A DNA stretch of 64,000 bases, taken from Streptomyces sp. DT2A-34 (GTDB taxonomy: Bacteria > Actinomycetota > Actinomycetes > Streptomycetales > Streptomycetaceae). The position numbers and the translations under genes were made by a program. The notes under the pieces were generated by a model. That model searched no databases and was not told where the DNA came from. It saw nothing but the letters and a program-made list of their open reading frames with translations. Positions 55,168-64,000 of the stretch are shown here, piece after piece. The stretch lies in NCBI RefSeq assembly GCF_030499515.1, contig NZ_JASTWJ010000001.1:10107055-10171054 (forward strand), written 5' to 3'. Position 1 is the stretch's first letter. Every line of letters begins with the position of its first letter.

Positions 55168-56445
55168 TTATGGGTTGCGCCGAGGGCGCTCATGGTCGCG
55201 GCCCGGGGGGAGGGTGCGAACCTGTGGGAAGGAGATGCTGAGGGCCGTTGCCAGGACCACCGACAGGCTGCAGACGGTGAGGGTGGTCGCCAGACTGGTG
55301 GCCTCGGCGGCCGGGCCGGCCACCAGGAGGCCGAGTGAGGCCAGGGAGAGAGAGCCGAACCAGTCGTAGGAGCTGACTCGGGAGAGGGACTCCTCCGGGA
55401 TCTTGTGCTGGAGGGTGGTGCTCCACAGGACGCCGTAGACGCTGATGCTCAGGCCGGTGAAGAACATCGCGGCGATGGTGAGCCAGGCCGGCGCCCGGGC
55501 GGCGAGGAGCGCCATGGGCAGCGCCGCGGGGAGTGCGGCGAGCGAGGCGATGAGGAGCGGACGTCGGGGCCGGAACCTGGCGCCCAGGGCCGCGCCGACG
55601 ATGCTGCCCACCGCCTGGGCCCCGACGAGGGCCGACCAGGTCTGCGCTCCGCCGGAGTCCTGGAAACGAAGCGGCCCCAGCACCCCCACGGTGGCGTTCA
55701 CCGCGGCCATCACCAGGGCGTACTGGGCGGTGAGGACCCACAGCCATTGGCGGGACATGAACTCCCGCTGTCCTTCCCGCAGATCCTGCCAGCCGGAGGT
55801 CGCGCGCCGCGGGCGCGGAGCGACGGGCACCTTGTGCATGAGCAAGCCGCTGGCGAAGAAGGTGAGGGCGTTCAAGGCGAGCGCCCAGCCCGCTCCGAAG
55901 AACCCGACGATGGCTCCGGCCGCCGCGAGGCCCACCAGGTTCGCGGTGTTGCTTCCGGTGCGCAGCGCCGAGTTGGCTCGCTGCAGGCTGTCCTCCGGGA
56001 CGAGCTGCGGGATGAGACCGTCCATGGCGGGATACAGCAGCGCCGAGGCGGTTCCGGCCACCGCCGCCAGGAAGCACAGCAGGACGAGGGGGGCGCTCTC
56101 GGCGGTGATCAGGACCGCGAGGAACGTGAAGGCGATGCCCGCCGTGTATTCGGCGGCGAGGATGAGCCGTGAGCGCCGGACGCGGTCCGCGACGACCCCG
56201 CCGATCAGGATGAAGCACACCTGGGGAATGGCCTGGCAGGCAAGTACCAGGGAGAGCTGTCCCGGAGTGCTTCCGGGCAGGCTGAGCACACCGAAGGCGA
56301 GGGCGACGCGCGCCAGGCCGTTGCCGAAGACGGACACGGTGCGTGCGACGAGGAAGTAGAGGAAGCTCGGTTCGGCTGTCAGGGGTCTGGGGGGCGAGGC
56401 CTGCAGACCGGTCGTACTGCCTGAATTCTCAGGGCTGCGGGGCAA
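55168..56445 (-). CDS. MFS transporter (probable exporter)
   Basis: A 425-residue major facilitator with twelve predicted hydrophobic segments. It shows the MFS loop motif [15 protein letters not shown] (about 81-95), and the overall pattern ([23 protein letters not shown]) is that of the MFS_3/enterobactin-exporter-like drug efflux group. The TTG at 56445, with GAGGAG upstream, overlaps the M3 peptidase gene by 17 nt. By position it is the exporter of the divergent YcaO-TfuA cluster and may also provide self-resistance. The C-terminus is short and basic. Confidence 0.85.
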
Positions 56446-58273
56446 CGGGGTTGTCTCCTCGGGCGGTGTCTGCGGAAGTGTGCCCCGCGTTGTTCAGGTA
56501 GGCGTCGGCCGCCCGGCAGAACGTCTCCACTCGACGTGCCAGGCCGGCGGCCGATGCCATCCAGAACTCCTCGGAACCCAGGTCGATGCCGCACCGTCGG
56601 GCGAGCACCTCTGGAGCGTGCCGTCCGGAGTTGGAGAGGAGGTACCGCAGGGCATCGGGCTGGAGAGTACCGTCGGTGCCTTCCCTGATGCCGAGTCCGA
56701 GGAACAGACCGAAGTAATAAGGCCAGTTCGTGAAGGGCGTTTCGGCGTAGTAGTGAGGTTTGGAGATCCAGGCATAGCGGTCGAGCGTGGCGACGTCGAC
56801 GCTGTCGCCGTATGTCTCGCACTGGGCCTCGTGCAGGAGGCCGGAGATGACTTTGGCCGAGACGGTGCCCTCTTCGCGTTGCCGGAGGTACCGGTGTTCG
56901 AAGAGGAAGCGGCTGTAGGTGTCGACGACGACCTGGAAGTGCCCGATGAGGTCGGCGTTCATCAGCGCCAGGTACTGCTCGGGGGTCGGGTCCGTGGTGC
57001 CGTGCTCCAGGAGCAGCGTCTCGGACACCAGGCTGGCGGTCTCGGCGAGAGCCAGGGGCGGGATGCGCTGCAGTTCCTCGCTGTCACGCAGCAGGTGGTA
57101 GTGGTAGGCGTGTCCGAGTTCGTGCGCCAGACTCAGGACGCTGTCCATGCTGTCGTCGAAGTTGACGAGCAGTCGGCTCTGTCCGTCGCGCATGGGCATG
57201 CTCAAAGCGGTCTGCCGCTTCCCGGGGCGTGGCTCGGCGTCGATCCACGCGTTGTCGCCGGCCCGGCGGACGAGGGCGGCGAAGTCGTCGGCGAACGCGC
57301 CGGCCGCCCGCAGGGTCATCTCGAGCGCGGCGTCCCAGCCGATCTGCGGTTCCTCGGGGAGGGGAGCGGCGATGTCCGGATAGGACAGGGTCCGCACTCC
57401 GAGCAGCGCGGCTTTGGCCCGGGCGAAGCGATGGAGGGCCGGGAGCGCCGCCCGTACCGCCTCGTGCAGCACGTGCAGGATCCTGCTGTCGACACCGTTG
57501 GCATGGAGGGACAGGTCCAGTGGTCCGGCCCATCCTCGGTGGGCCGCCAGCGTGAGCGTCTCGCCCCGGATGGCATTGAGGCAGGCCGCTGCCGGGGACT
57601 CGATCGACTGCCACGCCCGTTGGGCGGCCTCGTATGCCGCGTGCCGGCGTTTCGGCTCCGGGCGCCCGAGTTCGCTCCGCAGTGTGGCGATGGACGCCGT
57701 CTCGCCGTCCAGCTCTCCGGTGAGATTGCTGGTCAGGTCGCGGTGGAGGTTCTGCCATGCCTGCATGCCGCTGGGGCGGAGCTGCGCGAGCAACAACTCC
57801 TGTTCCGGCGGGAGTTGGTGGCGCGCGACGGCATGGGTGCGTTCGAGCCAGTAGCGGTGCGCGGCGGCGATCGGGCTGGCTTCGACGAGCCGCTCGCGCT
57901 CCAGGCGGGTCACCCACTGTTGAAGGCGTGACTGCAGGGCGGGCAGCGTGCTCGTCGCCTGGCGAACGGCGGCCGCCTGCGCCGCCGCCTCGGCGTCCGC
58001 GCCGTCCGCCCAGCAGCGTCCTGCCCAGTACAGGGAGAGGACCCGGTGATCCTCGGCCGCTCGGCTGACCAGGGTGAGCGTCTGCTCGAAGAGCGCGACC
58101 TGGTCCGGCGTCGTCTGCAGGGGCGGCCCCGGGTCGATCTTCTGCTCGGTGAAGTGCCGTTCCAGGTCTTCGAGTTGGGTGCGAAGCCGACGGAGAGCTT
58201 CGTCGGGGGATGCGGCGTCGGCGGAGGGGAAGACTGTGTCGAGGTTCCAGCGGGGCGGCGTCGCTTGGTTCAT
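56429..58273 (-). CDS. M3-family metallopeptidase (oligoendopeptidase F-like)
   Basis: A 614-residue zinc endopeptidase of family M3. The catalytic motif LAHELGHAYH supplies HExxH, and ETASLVSETLLLEH about 25 residues later supplies the third Glu ligand. The N-terminal helical lid (about 1-350) is typical of PepF. M3 enzymes cut short peptides inside a closed cavity. No signal peptide is visible, so it acts in the cytoplasm. In this context it is a good candidate for leader or follower removal, or final trimming, of a modified peptide. The ATG at 58273 starts the conserved WNLDTVFPS region; an open frame to 58351 has no homology. It lies 95 bp after the 105-aa gene. Confidence 0.9.
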   Translation of the reverse strand: MNQATPPRWNLDTVFPSADAASPDEALRRLRTQLEDLERHFTEQKIDPGPPLQTTPDQVALFEQTLTLVSRAAEDHRVLSLYWAGRCWADGADAEAAAQAAAVRQATSTLPALQSRLQQWVTRLERERLVEASPIAAAHRYWLERTHAVARHQLPPEQELLLAQLRPSGMQAWQNLHRDLTSNLTGELDGETASIATLRSELGRPEPKRRHAAYEAAQRAWQSIESPAAACLNAIRGETLTLAAHRGWAGPLDLSLHANGVDSRILHVLHEAVRAALPALHRFARAKAALLGVRTLSYPDIAAPLPEEPQIGWDAALEMTLRAAGAFADDFAALVRRAGDNAWIDAEPRPGKRQTALSMPMRDGQSRLLVNFDDSMDSVLSLAHELGHAYHYHLLRDSEELQRIPPLALAETASLVSETLLLEHGTTDPTPEQYLALMNADLIGHFQVVVDTYSRFLFEHRYLRQREEGTVSAKVISGLLHEAQCETYGDSVDVATLDRYAWISKPHYYAETPFTNWPYYFGLFLGLGIREGTDGTLQPDALRYLLSNSGRHAPEVLARRCGIDLGSEEFWMASAAGLARRVETFCRAADAYLNNAGHTSADTARGDNPVAPQP

Positions 58274-58324
58274 CTGTCCGTTTCCGTCGGGCCGTGGTGG
58301 GGCTGGCGTGGAACTGTCATGGGC

Positions 58325-58357
58325 GGTGCGGGACCTGCTCTGGGCAGGCACCGCACC
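58325..58357 (-). terminator. Hairpin just after the 105-aa gene (possible attenuator)
   Basis: GGTGCGG-GA-CCTGC (58325-58338) pairs with GCAGG-CA-CCGCACC (58344-58357): 5 bp plus 7 bp separated by a 2x2 internal loop. It sits 11 bp past the stop of the 105-aa gene and before the M3 peptidase gene, where partial terminators commonly raise precursor over enzyme transcript levels. No T-run follows. Confidence 0.5.
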
Positions 58358-58368
58358 AGAGGATGCAC

Positions 58369-58686
58369 TCAGTCGACCTTGGGTGCCTTCTCGGGGTCTA
58401 TGTAGACCTTCCGCGCCTTGATGCGCCCGGTGGCGGTGTGGCGGCCGACGACCTCCTTGACGTCGTCACCCTCGGCCACCGGCCTGCTGAGCCGGATGCT
58501 GACCTCGGCGCGCAGGCCGAAGTTGTCCTGGACGGCGGCGTCGGCGGCGGAAGCGGCCTCGACGAGTCCCTTCCTGACGATGTCCATGTAGTGGTCGACG
58601 TCGACGGGGTCGAGGTCGATCCCGACGATGTTCTCCCGTTCCTCGGAGGTGGTGAATCGAGTCAGCTTCGGTTGCGTCTCGGACAT
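58369..58686 (-). CDS. 105-aa protein, candidate RiPP precursor or partner
   Basis: A 105-residue acidic/charged protein with no Cys and no recognised family. A very strong ribosome binding site (GGAGG, 6 bp before the ATG at 58686) and its place as first gene of the leftward operon fit a highly expressed peptide substrate. The sequence looks partly folded: helix about 28-50 (DHYMDIVRKGLVEAAS), beta-like segments AEVSIRLSRP (about 59-68) and TATGRIKARKVYID (about 83-96). A recognisable short core at the C-terminus is not evident (it ends EKAPKVD). It could be the precursor with the modified site inside, or a binding partner. A hairpin follows the stop. Confidence 0.6.
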   Translation of the reverse strand: MSETQPKLTRFTTSEERENIVGIDLDPVDVDHYMDIVRKGLVEAASAADAAVQDNFGLRAEVSIRLSRPVAEGDDVKEVVGRHTATGRIKARKVYIDPEKAPKVD

Positions 58687-59031
58687 GTATGTCCTCCGTT
58701 TGCGAGCTGATGAACCGGCCTTGGGGCGTTCGCACACTTCGGCCCCCGGTCGCAGAACACGACCGCCAACCACCATCGCCCACATCGGTGGCGGTTGAAA
58801 ATTGCGCTTGGGGAAGTTGTCCGCTTAGCGACCGTCGAGGCCACGGCGTTCTGACCGTTTTGACGCCAATAACCCCGTTGTAGATTGCGATTTTTGACCG
58901 TCCGCACAAGGCCGCCACATTCAGTTCGGGCCATTTGCCATGGCCCGCTTCTGGCAGCAAAGAGCCATGGGTAACGTTCCGGGGGTGCGCTGTCCGAACC
59001 GCCGACACACCGCCCCGAAAGCCGGAGGCCC
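58687..59031. other. Divergent promoter region of the RiPP-like cluster
   Basis: About 345 bp between the leftward 105-aa gene and the rightward operon. TTGACG (58860-58865) and TAGATT (58881-58886), 15 bp apart, resemble a rightward promoter; a second TTGACC lies at 58894-58899. The region 58790-58930 is less GC-rich than its flanks. A small ORF at 58689-58883 lacks a ribosome binding site and was not accepted. Confidence 0.45.
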
Positions 59032-59835
59032 ATGTCTCGAGACGCCCGAAAGTCCAGCCCACAAAGATCGCAGAGCGCCGCCCGGGAACTTCTGGCCAAT
59101 TTCTACACGGTCGAGCGGGCCGGTGGCTTCCGACTCAGTGATGGAGGTGGTCCCTTCGGGTTCGACATCACGACCGCCCTGCAGGTTGATTTCCTGATGG
59201 CGTCCTACGGCTGCGACGGAATCGTGGAGACGGGAAGTTTCCTCGGTGACACCACGACCTATTTGGCAAGGCAATATCCGGACACTCCGATACGCACCTG
59301 CGATGTGTCCGAGGAGTATGCGTCATTCACCCGCCGGCGCCTGGCGGGGCAGGACAACGTACGCGTTCTGACAGGCAGCTCCGACCAGCTGCTGCCACGG
59401 TTGCTGAAGAATTTCAGCCGGCCTCTCGTCTATCTCGACGCGCACTGGTACGAGCACTGGCCCATTCGCGAGGAAATCGCCCTGACGGGCACCGGGATCG
59501 TAGCGATTGACGATTTCGACATCGGTCACCGGCGCTTCTCCTTCGACGAATACGATGGAACACGCCTGGACGCGCGGCTGATCGCACGCGTACTGCCCGA
59601 GCTCGACGAGTTGTTCGTCGGCGACCCCGAGGCCGACTACCCCTTTCCGTGCCTGCAGACCGGCCGGCGTTCCGGCACGGCCTATCTCGTGCGGGGGTTG
59701 GACCCAGGGCCGCTGCGGGAGAGCGGCATGTTCCGGCGGATCGCGCTGAAACCGCACATCCAGCTGCCGTCCTGGAACACCGCGGGGGCGGGCGCGGCGC
59801 TGCCGGGGGCCACGGCGTCCCGTGCGGGGAGGTGA
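59032..59835 (+). CDS. Class I methyltransferase-like protein
   Basis: A 267-residue Rossmann-fold protein resembling the Methyltransf_24 group. Motif I is GIVETGSFLGDTTTYLA (about 63-79), the acidic residue ending strand 2 is in RTCDVSEEY, and the motif IV region is VYLDAHWYEHW with a following VAIDDFD. It would use S-adenosylmethionine, but the acceptor is unknown; a peptide N-, O- or S-methylation is inferred from the neighbours. GGAGG precedes the ATG at 59032. It is first of a six-gene operon and ends 4 bp before the YcaO start. Codon use is slightly less GC-rich than in nearby genes. Confidence 0.78.
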   Translation: MSRDARKSSPQRSQSAARELLANFYTVERAGGFRLSDGGGPFGFDITTALQVDFLMASYGCDGIVETGSFLGDTTTYLARQYPDTPIRTCDVSEEYASFTRRRLAGQDNVRVLTGSSDQLLPRLLKNFSRPLVYLDAHWYEHWPIREEIALTGTGIVAIDDFDIGHRRFSFDEYDGTRLDARLIARVLPELDELFVGDPEADYPFPCLQTGRRSGTAYLVRGLDPGPLRESGMFRRIALKPHIQLPSWNTAGAGAALPGATASRAGR

Positions 59836-59839
59836 CCGT

Positions 59840-61054
59840 ATGCATGTGCTGAGCGGCAGCATCCGGACCCGGTCGGCGGAGGAGGCGGCGCCGGTCGCCT
59901 GGGCGGTCGCGCAGCGGCTGGGTGTCACCCGGGTCACCGATGTCACGTGGATGGACCGGATCGGAATCCCCGTCAGCTCCGCCACGCGCCCGCGGGCCGG
60001 CATTCTGCGGGTCTCGGCGGGAAAGGGCCGTCGCCCCGCCGAAGCCCACATCGGTGCGCTGATGGAGAGCATCGAGCAAGGTGTGGCCGAGCGGGCGGCC
60101 GAGACCGCCGCTGTCGAGTGGATGAGCGCGAGGGACGTGGTCCGCGACGGCGGCCCCACGTTGGGCAGTTACTGTCCGCACATCAACGCCCCGCTCGACC
60201 CCGACCGGCCCCTTGCCTGGGTCATCGCCCACGACATCGTCCGTGACTGCCCTGTCCCGGTGCCGGCGGAGCTCGTCTTCATCCCCTGCCCGCCGGAGCT
60301 GACGAGCGGTTACTTCGGGTCCACCACCACGGGGCTCGCGTCGGGAAACACCTACCCGGAAGCCACCGTGCACGGACTGTGCGAGGTACTGGAGCGGGAC
60401 ATCTCTTCCTTCCAGGTCGTGGACGATGCCTCCTTCCTCGTCCGGCCCGACAGCCTGCCGCCCGCCCTGAGCGAGATGACCGACAGGATCCGGTCCGCGG
60501 GCCTGCGCACCTGGTTGCGCTGGGTCCCCTCGGCCCTCGGCGTCTCCTATTTCACCTGCCTGATCGAGGACCCGGACTTTCCGACACCGCTGTTCTGCAA
60601 TGGCGGTTACGGCGCCCATCCGGTCCCCGTCATCGCCGCGACGCGGGCGATCACCGAAGCCGCCCAGAGCCGGCTCACGTACATCCAGGGCGCCCGCGAG
60701 GACCTGGAGGACACCTTCGAGCTGTTCCGCGACGCCCCGGCGCAGGCCATGGACAGCTACCGCGAGGAGCTGATCGGCCGCTACGCCGACGAACGGCGCA
60801 CTGTGCGGTTCGGGGACATAGCCGGAGCGGACCCCGCCCCGCCCGAGGTCATGCTGGAGCACCTGGTCCGGCACTGCCGCGGCGCCGGCTTCTCCTCCAT
60901 CGCCGTGTACCACTACGCCGAACTCGCCCTGCCGTTCCGTATCGTGCGGGTGGCGGTTCCGACCGCGGAGCACTTCACCAACGCCACTCAGCGCGTGGGA
61001 ACCCGGCTGGGGCAGCTGCGGCGCGTCGAACGCACGCTGGTGGGGGCCGCGTGA
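59840..61054 (+). CDS. YcaO-domain cyclodehydratase/thioamide synthetase
   Basis: A 404-residue YcaO enzyme with the ATP/Mg-binding elements ALMESIEQGVAERA (about 73-86), HGLCEVLERDI (about 178-188) and RAITEAAQSRLTYIQGARED (about 272-291). YcaO proteins activate backbone amides with ATP; with a TfuA partner they introduce sulfur to give thioamides, as in thioviridamide-type peptides and methyl-coenzyme M reductase. There is no C-terminal PxPxP tail, which is usual for non-azoline members. No separate leader-binding (RRE) protein is seen. An ideal GGAGGTGA precedes the ATG at 59840, and the stop overlaps the TfuA gene (GTGA). Confidence 0.92.
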   Translation: MHVLSGSIRTRSAEEAAPVAWAVAQRLGVTRVTDVTWMDRIGIPVSSATRPRAGILRVSAGKGRRPAEAHIGALMESIEQGVAERAAETAAVEWMSARDVVRDGGPTLGSYCPHINAPLDPDRPLAWVIAHDIVRDCPVPVPAELVFIPCPPELTSGYFGSTTTGLASGNTYPEATVHGLCEVLERDISSFQVVDDASFLVRPDSLPPALSEMTDRIRSAGLRTWLRWVPSALGVSYFTCLIEDPDFPTPLFCNGGYGAHPVPVIAATRAITEAAQSRLTYIQGAREDLEDTFELFRDAPAQAMDSYREELIGRYADERRTVRFGDIAGADPAPPEVMLEHLVRHCRGAGFSSIAVYHYAELALPFRIVRVAVPTAEHFTNATQRVGTRLGQLRRVERTLVGAA

Positions 61055-61803
61055 GCGACCACCGGAACACCCCGTCACCGCTGCACGTCATGGTCGGCCC
61101 CACGGGCTACGGGCAGCATGAGCTGCTGTCCACAGTGCCGGGCGTCGTGGTGCACCCGCCCGCGGAGCGCGGATCCATACGTTCGCTGCTGCGCCGGCAC
61201 ACCTGCGTCCCCCAGGAGATCGCCCTGGTCGACGGCCGGTTCGGCGACGTCCTGGCCGTCGGTCACGGAGAGCTCCTCGAGGCCGTCGACGCCGGCTGGC
61301 GAGTCTGGGGGCTCGGATCGATGGGCGCCATCCGTGCTGCCGAACTCCACACCCTCGGGGTGATCGGCTACGGGCAGGTCTTCCGGCACCTGCGCGACAC
61401 CATGGCCCCCGACGACGAGGTGGCCGTGCTGCACGGGCCCGCGCCGCGCTACCGGCCCGCGACCGAGGCTCTGGTCGACTTGCGTGTGCTTCTGGCGCAC
61501 TGGGCCGGTGAGGGGCTGTTGTCCCGGGATCGGAAGGAAGAGCTGCTGACCGAGCTGGCCGGCAGATGGTTCGGTGACCGCTCGCTCGCGGAGGTCATCG
61601 CGCTCGCCCGGCGCATGCTCGGTGCCGCGGCCGCCGACGTGCTGCGGTCCGCGCTGCCTCCCCCCGCCCGATACCGGATCAAGAGCCGTGACCTGGCAAC
61701 TTTCCTCCAGGAGGAACCATGGCGTCAGCCGCGTCGTTCACCGAGCGGGAATTCGGCGGATTTCCCTTCCTCGATCTCTCCTTCTTACCTGGCCGCCTCC
61801 TGA
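61051..61803 (+). CDS. TfuA-like protein (YcaO partner)
   Basis: A 250-residue TfuA-domain protein: PLHVMVGPTGYGQHELL at the start, EIALVDGRFGDVLAVGHGELLEAVDAG, and the highly conserved WGLGSMGAIRAAELHTLGVIGYGQVF (given in parts). TfuA proteins occur with YcaO and are required for thioamide formation, probably by delivering or hydrolysing a sulfur donor. The GTG at 61051 overlaps the YcaO stop. Its last 28 codons overlap the next gene by 85 nt in another frame; the tail sequence is Ser/Pro-rich and probably not part of the fold. Confidence 0.9.
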   Translation: MSDHRNTPSPLHVMVGPTGYGQHELLSTVPGVVVHPPAERGSIRSLLRRHTCVPQEIALVDGRFGDVLAVGHGELLEAVDAGWRVWGLGSMGAIRAAELHTLGVIGYGQVFRHLRDTMAPDDEVAVLHGPAPRYRPATEALVDLRVLLAHWAGEGLLSRDRKEELLTELAGRWFGDRSLAEVIALARRMLGAAAADVLRSALPPPARYRIKSRDLATFLQEEPWRQPRRSPSGNSADFPSSISPSYLAAS

Positions 61804-62486
61804 CCGCGGTCGCCTGTGTGCGCGCGAGCCGGCGCACCGGCAGCGCGGCCCCGCCCGGCCCGGACGAACTGAACGATGTCCTGACCCCGCTGACCGCGCT
61901 GGCCATCCGCCGCATGGACATGAAGCTGGACATCCCGGGTGGCCCGCTGGCACCTGAGCGGCAGGCGGCGGTGAACGAGGCGCTGGCCACGATCGCGGCC
62001 GCCGTGCCGGCGTGGGAGCCACTGGTGCGGCTGCCGATCCGTTTCTTGCGTCTGCGGGACGGCGGGCGGGCCATCGGGGCCAGCTGCTACGCCTGGCCGC
62101 AGCACGTTCTCCTCGGTGACGACGCCTTCGCCTCCCGCGCCGAACTCGCCGAGCAGGTGCTGCACGAGGTCTCCCACAACTGGCTCTACCTCGTGGAGGA
62201 GATCAAGGCGCTGCAACACCGCGGCTGCGACCACACACTGACACTCCCGTCCGGTACCAGCGAGCGAGAGCCGGACGAGATCCTCGGCGCGGCGCACGTC
62301 GTCCTCAACGTCCGCCGGCTGTGGCAGCGGATGGACGTGGACGAGGACCAGCGTTCCCGGCGTCTCACCGACCTGGCGTCCTACCTCGAGGGGTGCCTGT
62401 CCCTCATCGACGAGGCACGCGTCTGCCTGACCGACGACGGACAGGCGCTGGCCGACCGATTGCTGCAGGAGGCTGTTGCCGCGTGA
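61719..62486 (+). CDS. HExxH protein, putative peptide-modifying oxygenase
   Basis: A 255-residue helical protein with LHEVSHNW (His149-Glu150-xx-His153) and a downstream His in GAAHVVLNV (about 193), the pattern of the RiPP-associated HExxH proteins that NCBI now names aKG-HExxH-type peptide beta-hydroxylases (recalled, not searched). Those use Fe(II) and 2-oxoglutarate to hydroxylate peptide side chains rather than acting as proteases. CAGGAGGAA precedes the ATG at 61719, inside the TfuA coding end (85-nt overlap). Codon 23 is TTA (61785-61787), rare in Streptomyces and read by the bldA tRNA, so expression may be tied to development. The stop overlaps the next gene by GTGA. Confidence 0.75.
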   Translation: MASAASFTEREFGGFPFLDLSFLPGRLLTAVACVRASRRTGSAAPPGPDELNDVLTPLTALAIRRMDMKLDIPGGPLAPERQAAVNEALATIAAAVPAWEPLVRLPIRFLRLRDGGRAIGASCYAWPQHVLLGDDAFASRAELAEQVLHEVSHNWLYLVEEIKALQHRGCDHTLTLPSGTSEREPDEILGAAHVVLNVRRLWQRMDVDEDQRSRRLTDLASYLEGCLSLIDEARVCLTDDGQALADRLLQEAVAA

Positions 62487-63085
62487 AACTCAAGGGAGAA
62501 CTGTCGACCCGCTGGGGCACGCCGTTCCTCGTCCACCAGGTGGAAAGCCCCGACGGATACAACGCTGCTCTGCGCGAACTGCTGCTGGAGAGGGAGCACT
62601 CGAAAGCGGGCACCACCGTCGGTATCGTCGACGCGACCAAGACGACCTCGGACGTGCTGCGCTGGGACCACTGCCTGATCGACCCGCTGCGCGGCTGGAT
62701 CCTCGATGTCGGCGAGTCCATGAACCACCACGTCGGTGCCGGAGTCACGGCCGCGGGGGAGCCCGCGTCGATGATCGCGGAGGCCTGGGCGGTCATCTAC
62801 CACGAGTGGGGCCACCACAAGATCCACTCGCACCATGACTCGGCCTGGTCGGGCGTGTACTACGTCCACGCCGAGAACATGGCGCAGGGCACGGGAAACA
62901 TCGAGCTCGTCGACCCGCGCCCCGCGGCCTGCGTGGCAGAGCCCGGCCGGTCGCCGCTGCTGCCCTTCACACCGCGGACCGGCTCACTCATCGCCTTCCC
63001 CAGCTGGTTGCAGCACTGGGTGACGCCGTACATCGGCGGCAGCGAGCGGATCTGCATCGCCTTCAACATCGGCTTCGAACGGTGA
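62483..63085 (+). CDS. 2OG-Fe(II) oxygenase-like protein (TIGR02466 type)
   Basis: A 200-residue jelly-roll oxygenase of the 2OG-FeII_Oxy_5/TIGR02466 type. The iron site is in HSHHDSAWSGVYYV (His117-x-Asp119 as the likely HxD pair), the distal His in FPSWLQHWV (His178), and the 2-oxoglutarate Arg in ERICIAFN (Arg189). The gene starts at a GTG that overlaps the preceding stop, and its own stop overlaps the next gene. Substrate is presumably the cluster's peptide. It is a single-domain enzyme of normal length. Confidence 0.83.
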   Translation: MKLKGELSTRWGTPFLVHQVESPDGYNAALRELLLEREHSKAGTTVGIVDATKTTSDVLRWDHCLIDPLRGWILDVGESMNHHVGAGVTAAGEPASMIAEAWAVIYHEWGHHKIHSHHDSAWSGVYYVHAENMAQGTGNIELVDPRPAACVAEPGRSPLLPFTPRTGSLIAFPSWLQHWVTPYIGGSERICIAFNIGFER

Positions 63086-63654
63086 GGACCATGACCTTCC
63101 CCGTCACCTCCCTGTGGGAGACCCCCGTGTGGAGCGGCGCCCTGGCCGCCGAGGACCTGGCTGGGCTGCCCGACCTGCTCGGCTCCGACCCGGAAGTACG
63201 GGCGGCCTGCACCAAGAGGTTGGGCCAGGCCCTCACTGACGTCGCTCACACCCTGGCCGGCCCCGGCGCCCGGGAACCGGACACGCCATGGAGCGCACAC
63301 ACCGAACGCTGGGAGGCGGGCTACCACTGCGGGCTCCGCTACGGGAAGGGCACGCTCCAGGCCATCGTCGTCGTCTCCGCGACCGGCACCGCACGGCACG
63401 CCGAGTCCGGGCGGATCAGCCTCCACGACCCGAGAGCCGGCGCCAGCAACGTCTTCCTGCCCGGTCTGCCCTGGGGCCGCCACCACCACCTGGAACCCGA
63501 GCCCGGCAACGTGCTGATCTGCCCCAGCTGGGTGGCATGGTCGGTGGCACCCGTCCAGGACGGCCACACCGTCGAGGTCTGCCTGTTGCACTCCACATGG
63601 GCCGCCGGGACATACCGGACCGGCCTGCTGCTGGGGCAGAAGCTGTCTGGGTGA
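63082..63654 (+). CDS. Degenerate 2OG oxygenase-like paralogue
   Basis: A 190-residue protein with the same fold as the preceding gene, judged from the start (LWETPVW), GRISLHDPRAG and GNVLICPSWVAWSV. At the metal sites it differs: the segment aligned to HSHHDSAW reads HCGLRYGKG, and the distal His is replaced by Trp (VAWSV). Hence it probably lacks a normal iron centre and may be a partner, regulator or altered catalyst; a HHH stretch at 134-136 could bind metal differently. The GTG at 63082 overlaps the previous stop; an ATG at 63091 is an alternative. It is the last gene of the operon. Confidence 0.68.
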   Translation: MRTMTFPVTSLWETPVWSGALAAEDLAGLPDLLGSDPEVRAACTKRLGQALTDVAHTLAGPGAREPDTPWSAHTERWEAGYHCGLRYGKGTLQAIVVVSATGTARHAESGRISLHDPRAGASNVFLPGLPWGRHHHLEPEPGNVLICPSWVAWSVAPVQDGHTVEVCLLHSTWAAGTYRTGLLLGQKLSG

Positions 63655-63689
63655 AGGCCGCACCTCGCCTCGAAGTGGCCGGTTTTTGA

Positions 63690-63985
63690 GGGGAGTTGTG
63701 CAGCCGCTCGTACCGTGCGGGGCCGTGATGGTTTCCATGGGTGGGGTGCCCTTGTGGCGGGTGGGCAGTTGTGACGGTGCAGTGATAGGGGGTGTGGTTG
63801 TTTTGGTTTGGTGTCCTGTTTTTGGGGGTGGGGCTCGGGAATGGTGAATGTGGCTGTGTTTGGGTGTGTTTGGGTGTGGATTTGAGGGTGTGTTCGGTTT
63901 GGTTGTTGGGGTGGTTGATCTGTGGTTTTTGGTTGTGTGGGAGTGATCTGGGGTTTTCCGTAGGTGTGGTGGTGCGTCTGTAGGC
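63690..63985. other. Strongly G/T-rich non-coding stretch
   Basis: After the last gene the plus strand becomes almost only G and T, with few C and A. It includes G runs (GGGGGTGGGG at about 63824-63833) and the tandem 10-mer TGTGTTTGGG twice at 63855-63874. The 192-nt open frame inside is low-complexity and not accepted as a gene. No terminator hairpin, tRNA or attachment site was seen between 63655 and the window end. Confidence 0.6.
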
Positions 63986-64000
63986 GGCTGCGCTTGCTAC

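Follow-up and report, generated by a model that had tools for sequence, protein, structure and literature searches.

The window analysed here, a stretch of 64 kb, is the final part of contig C1 in a 10.3-Mb Streptomyces genome. It holds a nine-gene cluster (55168-63654) arranged in two operons that diverge from a 345-bp gap (Table 1). All nine open reading frames are intact at the positions originally predicted, and the YcaO and TfuA genes indeed adjoin each other with a GTGA overlap (61051-61054). The divergent operon consists, as had been proposed, of a 105-aa protein (S105), an M3 peptidase and an MFS exporter, the latter two scoring above the Pfam cut-offs. No sigma-70-like promoter was found in 58600-59100. 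The HExxH gene starts within the 3' end of tfuA in a different frame (61719, with tfuA ending at 61803). The sequence beyond the cluster (63655-64000) is G/T-rich, and the cluster stops about 350 bases short of the end of contig C1.

Table 1. Genes and other features of the cluster, with positions in the window
Feature	Position	Strand	Evidence
MFS exporter, 425 aa	55168..56445	-	PF07690 E 1e-30, over Pfam cut-off
M3-family oligopeptidase	56429..58351	-	PF01432 E 1e-12, over Pfam cut-off; TIGR02290 411 bits, under cut-off 561.7
S105, 105 aa, candidate substrate/precursor	58369..58686	-	no family; 27 homologues; predicted fold
Intergenic gap, 345 bp, between divergent operons	58687..59031	.	no sigma-70-like promoter in 58600-59100
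MT, methyltransferase-like, 267 aa	59032..59835	+	COMT chains E 7e-7; under Pfam cut-offs
YcaO, 404 aa from ATG 59840	59840..61054	+	PF02624 E 9e-58, over Pfam cut-off
TfuA, 250 aa	61051..61803	+	PF07812 E 1e-31, over Pfam cut-off
aKG-HExxH-type peptide hydroxylase, 255 aa	61719..62486	+	TIGR04267 61.7 bits, cut-off 40
Ox1, TIGR02466-type 2OG-Fe(II) oxygenase, 200 aa	62483..63085	+	PF13759, TIGR02466
Ox2, degenerate Ox1 relative; start GTG 63082 or ATG 63091	63082..63654	+	hhalign with Ox1 E 3e-9

The best NCBIfam models for the YcaO and TfuA proteins are the thioamidation models TIGR03266 (McrA-glycine thioamidation; E 3e-59, 201 bits, under the cut-off of 365) and NF033432 (106.8 bits, under the cut-off of 235.2), respectively. 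The nearest solved chain to YcaO is MJ1094 (6pe3, E 2e-21), and TfuA matches the solved TfuA-domain protein 6xp8 (E 1e-19). Translation of YcaO probably starts at ATG 59840, the same start as in S. cyaneus. The HExxH protein expected after TfuA exceeds the curated cut-off of TIGR04267, a model named 'aKG-HExxH-type peptide beta-hydroxylase', and its HExxH motif is invariant in 16 of 16 aligned relatives. The assignment of a methyltransferase-like gene at the head of the plus operon was upheld and refined: MT stays under the Pfam cut-offs (17.7 versus 26.3 bits), and its residues 52-143 match catechol O-methyltransferase chains.

Both proteins encoded at the end of this operon had been described as jelly-roll, 2OG-oxygenase-like proteins; of the two, Ox1 has the complete catalytic set and Ox2 does not. 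Ox1 matches PF13759 (73.5 bits, cut-off 27) and TIGR02466 (71.0 bits, cut-off 62.5), and its H115-x-H117-H118-D119, H178 and R189 are invariant in all six copies from four loci; we take this His/Asp/His set and the Arg to be the residues that an Fe(II)/2OG enzyme should have. For Ox2, searches of Pfam and NCBIfam at E 1 gave no family. The Ox2 profile aligns with that of Ox1 at an hhalign probability of 96%, and HDPR and PGLPWGR are invariant among the Ox2 copies, none of which (0 of 6 aligned) has the H-x-D, distal His and Arg of Ox1 as a full set; the distal His alone is retained in one copy (L055:6850-7416). Because the catalytic set is incomplete in all six copies, two oxygenase activities are unsupported; Ox2 is a degenerate relative of Ox1 and probably acts as a partner subunit, not as a second oxygenase. 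The Ox1 and Ox2 genes are adjacent in each of the six pairs (L035 and L055 have two pairs apiece), and an active Ox1 with an inactive partner Ox2 is the simplest reading, the pairing being read from adjacency alone. Such an arrangement is described in passages of PMC12141560 for TlxI/TlxJ (TlxIJ), a heterodimeric nonheme oxygenase in which an active subunit is joined by a catalytically incompetent relative. In contrast to the proposed Ox1-Ox2 pair, TlxIJ is fungal and its substrates are meroterpenoids. If the reading is true, bacteria too would have a candidate 2OG oxygenase pair of one active and one inactive member in Ox1-Ox2.

Alignment with the S. cyaneus locus L003 covers 55199-63661 as two segments of about 86% identity and ends at both edges of the cluster. 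In the 20 kb of L003 compared, no alignment of the flanks was found outside this block, a second MFS copy excepted. This copy (L003:3825-5054) lies directly after Ox2 in S. cyaneus and is 54.5% identical to the window's MFS gene. The M3 gene may start at a later ATG, the one used by the S. cyaneus ORF. Two further Streptomyces loci, L035 (genome G284, 51% YcaO identity) and L055 (genome G939, 49%), retain the order MT-YcaO-TfuA-HExxH-Ox1-Ox2 with S105 divergent; in both, the genes after S105 are a further methyltransferase-like one (Pfam was searched with the copy from L035) and those of a second pair, Ox1'-Ox2', with an MFS gene beyond them. MFS genes are thus found near all four S105 loci. 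The M3 peptidase has no match at E 1e-3 in L035 and L055 and, with a presence in two of four loci, is accessory and not core. A gene set that does not stay together in other genomes had been named as refuting the original prediction; the neighbourhood comparison did not refute it, as the core was found again in S. cyaneus, L035 and L055. The cluster is a conserved unit. That unrelated genes came to lie together by accident near the chromosome end, as the distance of the block from the contig end (within 350 bp) might suggest, is exceedingly improbable: the same arrangement of S105 and MT-YcaO-TfuA-HExxH-Ox1-Ox2 occurs at four loci, with a YcaO identity of about 50% in the two distant ones.

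The gene set is conserved yet uncommon in Streptomyces. Genomes with MT number 3 of 384 in a genus sample, 2 of 394 in a family sample and 1 of 396 in a phylum sample, the window's own genome being counted in each; the phylum sample also has S105 in one genome of 396, again the window's own. Among 34 chosen genomes, the S105 profile hit three, namely the three MT carriers other than the window's genome; the remaining 31 came out of the search with YcaO, and of these five are named among the MT-negatives of the genus sample and the others are either in unlisted rows of that sample or outside its draw. With 8000 public proteins scored in each search, MT has 365 homologues (the best 120 of the 365 are listed) and the HExxH protein has 81. 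Public homologues were linked by contigs of equal size in bases; in this way, and with the window's own contig counted each time, S105 and MT coincide on six contig sizes, S105 and HExxH on six, and MT and HExxH on 20. Seven of the 11 S105 contig sizes of at least 7 kb (the window's own included) have an MT or HExxH partner, and four (17,120, 34,698, 36,384 and 8,365,212 bases) have no match in the HExxH list or among the best 120 of the 365 MT homologues.

S105 is the only small gene common to the four loci (the window, S. cyaneus L003, L035 and L055), and therefore it is the best candidate for the substrate. Other ORFs of 20-160 aa outside known genes yielded none common to all four loci within the compared stretches. 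The window copy matches no Pfam or NCBIfam family and no known precursor family; a search of public proteins (35 candidates) gave 27 homologues at E 1, a list that misses distant members such as the NBC_01304 copy, which is 45% identical. The AlphaFold2 model of S105 is compact, with a helix and a beta-hairpin (pLDDT 84.9, pTM 0.60). The predicted folded part comprises approximately residues 14-92, and the tail (93-105) is conserved. Conservation extends along the whole length, with a tail motif K-x-(Y/F)-x-D-P-x-K-A-P (residues 93-102) and a loop A-V-Q-D-N-F-x-L (residues 51-58), and a hypervariable core is absent. As modelled, S105 is unlike a classical short leader-core precursor peptide. 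It is conceivable that S105 is an accessory protein, with a role in recognition, as a scaffold or in immunity, and that the substrate is a peptide encoded elsewhere, a missed ORF or a non-ribosomal amide. S105 has neither a recognisable core nor a known family, which agrees with such a role, and closthioamide is an example of a non-ribosomal thioamide. We nevertheless regard an accessory S105 as unlikely, given that no second small ORF is shared by the compared stretches and that members of the HExxH family are known from RiPP pathways (passages of PMC12636437).

Five further loci (L036, L037, L038, L047 and L048) carry a YcaO-TfuA-HExxH triad with the gene order of the window, and every one of them has an MFS gene. 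L038 is a second cluster in the window's own genome, at 6.01 Mb (G000:C1:6004300-6024200; YcaO at L038:9303-10517). Upstream of the triad YcaO lie ORFs of 46 aa in L036, L037 and L038, and annotated ORFs of 50 and 54 aa in Pantoea and Paraburkholderia; H-x-A-N-N occurs in short upstream ORFs of all five loci. Judged by sequence, these ORFs constitute a candidate RiPP class that ranges from Streptomyces to plasmids of Pantoea and Paraburkholderia. The window has no H-x-A-N-N short ORF upstream of YcaO and no common short ORF besides S105, from whose sequence the motif is absent; profile similarity between S105 and the short precursors of the triads is not significant and its register is ambiguous. 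Vice versa, S105, MT, Ox1 and Ox2 have no match in the five triad loci (the S105 profile gives none at E 0.001). In a YcaO tree of 18 sequences, one clade holds the S105 type (support 99/98) and another the triad type (98/97); the two are sister to each other at 90/95, under the tree program's own mark of 95 and with a long-branch warning. The two types are alike in their sister YcaO clades, in the order of TfuA and HExxH and in the MFS gene. They differ in the short precursor of the triads, the TldD/PmbA-type gene of L036 and L037, and S105, MT, Ox1 and Ox2, which only the window type has. The tree places the cluster of the window next to an apparent RiPP pathway with a short precursor, the position of which is taken by S105. 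The TldD/PmbA-type peptidase genes lie divergent from the triads (L036:7388-8788, L037:11172-12551), each with a likely gene for a second subunit beside it.

With slightly better than even confidence, we propose that this is a biosynthetic cluster which modifies S105 by thioamidation, hydroxylation and methylation, followed by excision and export. We infer every reaction on S105, the Ox1-Ox2 pairing and the modified site, as well as how the product is released and what it is, as follows. TfuA would supply sulfide, and YcaO together with ATP would convert at least one backbone amide of S105 to a thioamide, as published for such pairs (passages of PMC13174530 and PMC13185837). There is no ThiF-type gene among the window's nine, and therefore a sulfur carrier would have to come from elsewhere. 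The aKG-HExxH enzyme would hydroxylate side chains of S105; enzymes of this type are described as hydroxylating the side chains of precursors, with backbone cleavage in addition for two of them (passages of PMC12636437). Ox1, paired with its inactive relative Ox2, would be responsible for further hydroxylation, MT would methylate S105, the M3 peptidase would trim the product in this strain, and the MFS protein would export it. The folded part of S105 would serve as the recognition domain, and the tail 93-102 or the loop 51-58 would be the likely modified stretches. In favour of S105 as the substrate we count that the block is kept in S. cyaneus and its core in two divergent loci, that the S105 profile hits only the MT carriers among the 34 chosen genomes, that the four loci have no second small ORF in common, that contig sizes link S105, MT and HExxH among public proteins, and that its YcaO is sister (90/95) to a clade with short precursor-like ORFs and MFS genes; against it count the fold without a hypervariable core, the lack of significant profile similarity to the short precursors of the triads, the four of 11 unmatched contigs and the M3 gene in only two of four loci. 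The thioamidated, hydroxylated and perhaps methylated peptide of the original prediction fits the gene content, with three changes: a second oxygenase activity is not supported, M3 occurs in only two of the four loci, and S105, which the prediction listed without naming it as the precursor, is the sole common small gene and is predicted to be folded, so that a standard short leader-core peptide is not what the cluster offers.

The fold of S105 also bears on a further alternative, in which S105 stays whole and acts itself as a thioamidated, hydroxylated protein like uL16 or McrA, while M3 and MFS serve otherwise. A YcaO is reported to act on the folded protein uL16, whose tertiary structure E. 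coli YcaO recognises, beside a hydroxylated Arg (passages of PMC13063428). The predicted fold of S105, its conservation over the full length and the place of M3 outside the core agree with this alternative. A thioamide on a folded protein is a possible parallel to uL16 YcaO and the McrA YcaO-TfuA system, and MJ1094 is the closest PDB chain to the window's YcaO. However, uL16 and McrA are housekeeping proteins, whereas S105 is dedicated to the cluster, and the YcaO of uL16 works without TfuA (passages of PMC13063428). Since each of the four S105 loci has an MFS gene nearby, which points to export of a small product, and the sister group resembles ordinary RiPP clusters, we consider a whole, self-acting S105 quite unlikely. 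It is possible, but in our opinion somewhat doubtful, that YcaO-TfuA thioamidates a folded protein domain instead of a linear leader-core peptide before hydroxylation by HExxH and the active/inactive 2OG pair, that the product is the modified protein or a fragment of it, and that the cluster arose by precursor replacement from a short-peptide YcaO-TfuA-HExxH pathway.

Thioamidated RiPPs of YcaO-TfuA clusters (the thioviridamide group, thiovarsolins and std; PMC13174530) share with the window the adjacent YcaO and TfuA and the MFS exporter, and the std cluster has, in passages of that paper, further tailoring including hydroxylation. In the open-licence literature, the paper found to deal with YcaO, TfuA and HExxH together is the one on the std cluster (PMC13174530). 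The window differs from the YcaO-TfuA RiPPs in its folded substrate candidate and in the addition of HExxH and Ox1-Ox2, and Pfam and NCBIfam searches found no MNIO, carbamoyltransferase, heme-oxygenase-like, ATP-grasp or amidinotransferase protein, which are thiovarsolin/std features, among the nine. PflC, PosC, ChlH and BpmH (passages of PMC12636437) resemble the window's HExxH protein in the TIGR04267 family and HExxH motif; PflC and PosC, in contrast, have Gln repeats and an ARMD motif as their targets, neither of which is present in the window's S105, and the window's enzyme sits with YcaO-TfuA. No description of the window's gene set was found in article texts of the open-licence literature. 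The passages considered of two surveys (PMC6511847, PMC8120280) do not name S. cyaneus or S. violascens; those of PMC6511847 do not contain 'peptidase M3', and those of PMC8120280 mention 'peptidase' once (S9) and no HExxH. One of the peptide networks of these surveys could hold the H-x-A-N-N peptides.

The cluster is a real, conserved variant of YcaO-TfuA biosynthesis. If the proposed function is true, thioamide biosynthesis would gain a pathway that acts on a structured substrate and combines its enzymes in a new way. Two candidate substrates can be named, S105 and the 46-aa H-x-A-N-N peptide of the same genome. The two related clusters in one strain, one for a short peptide and one for a folded protein, would then open a change of substrate type to direct study. 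Among the plasmid triads, ThiF-type genes are present inside the clusters (L047:12927-14039, L048:12660-14033), with a MoaD/ThiS gene in L048 as well. On the latter, a Paraburkholderia plasmid, another YcaO-TfuA pair, divergent and accompanied by MFS and ThiF genes, comes after the first cluster (L048:17079-21119).
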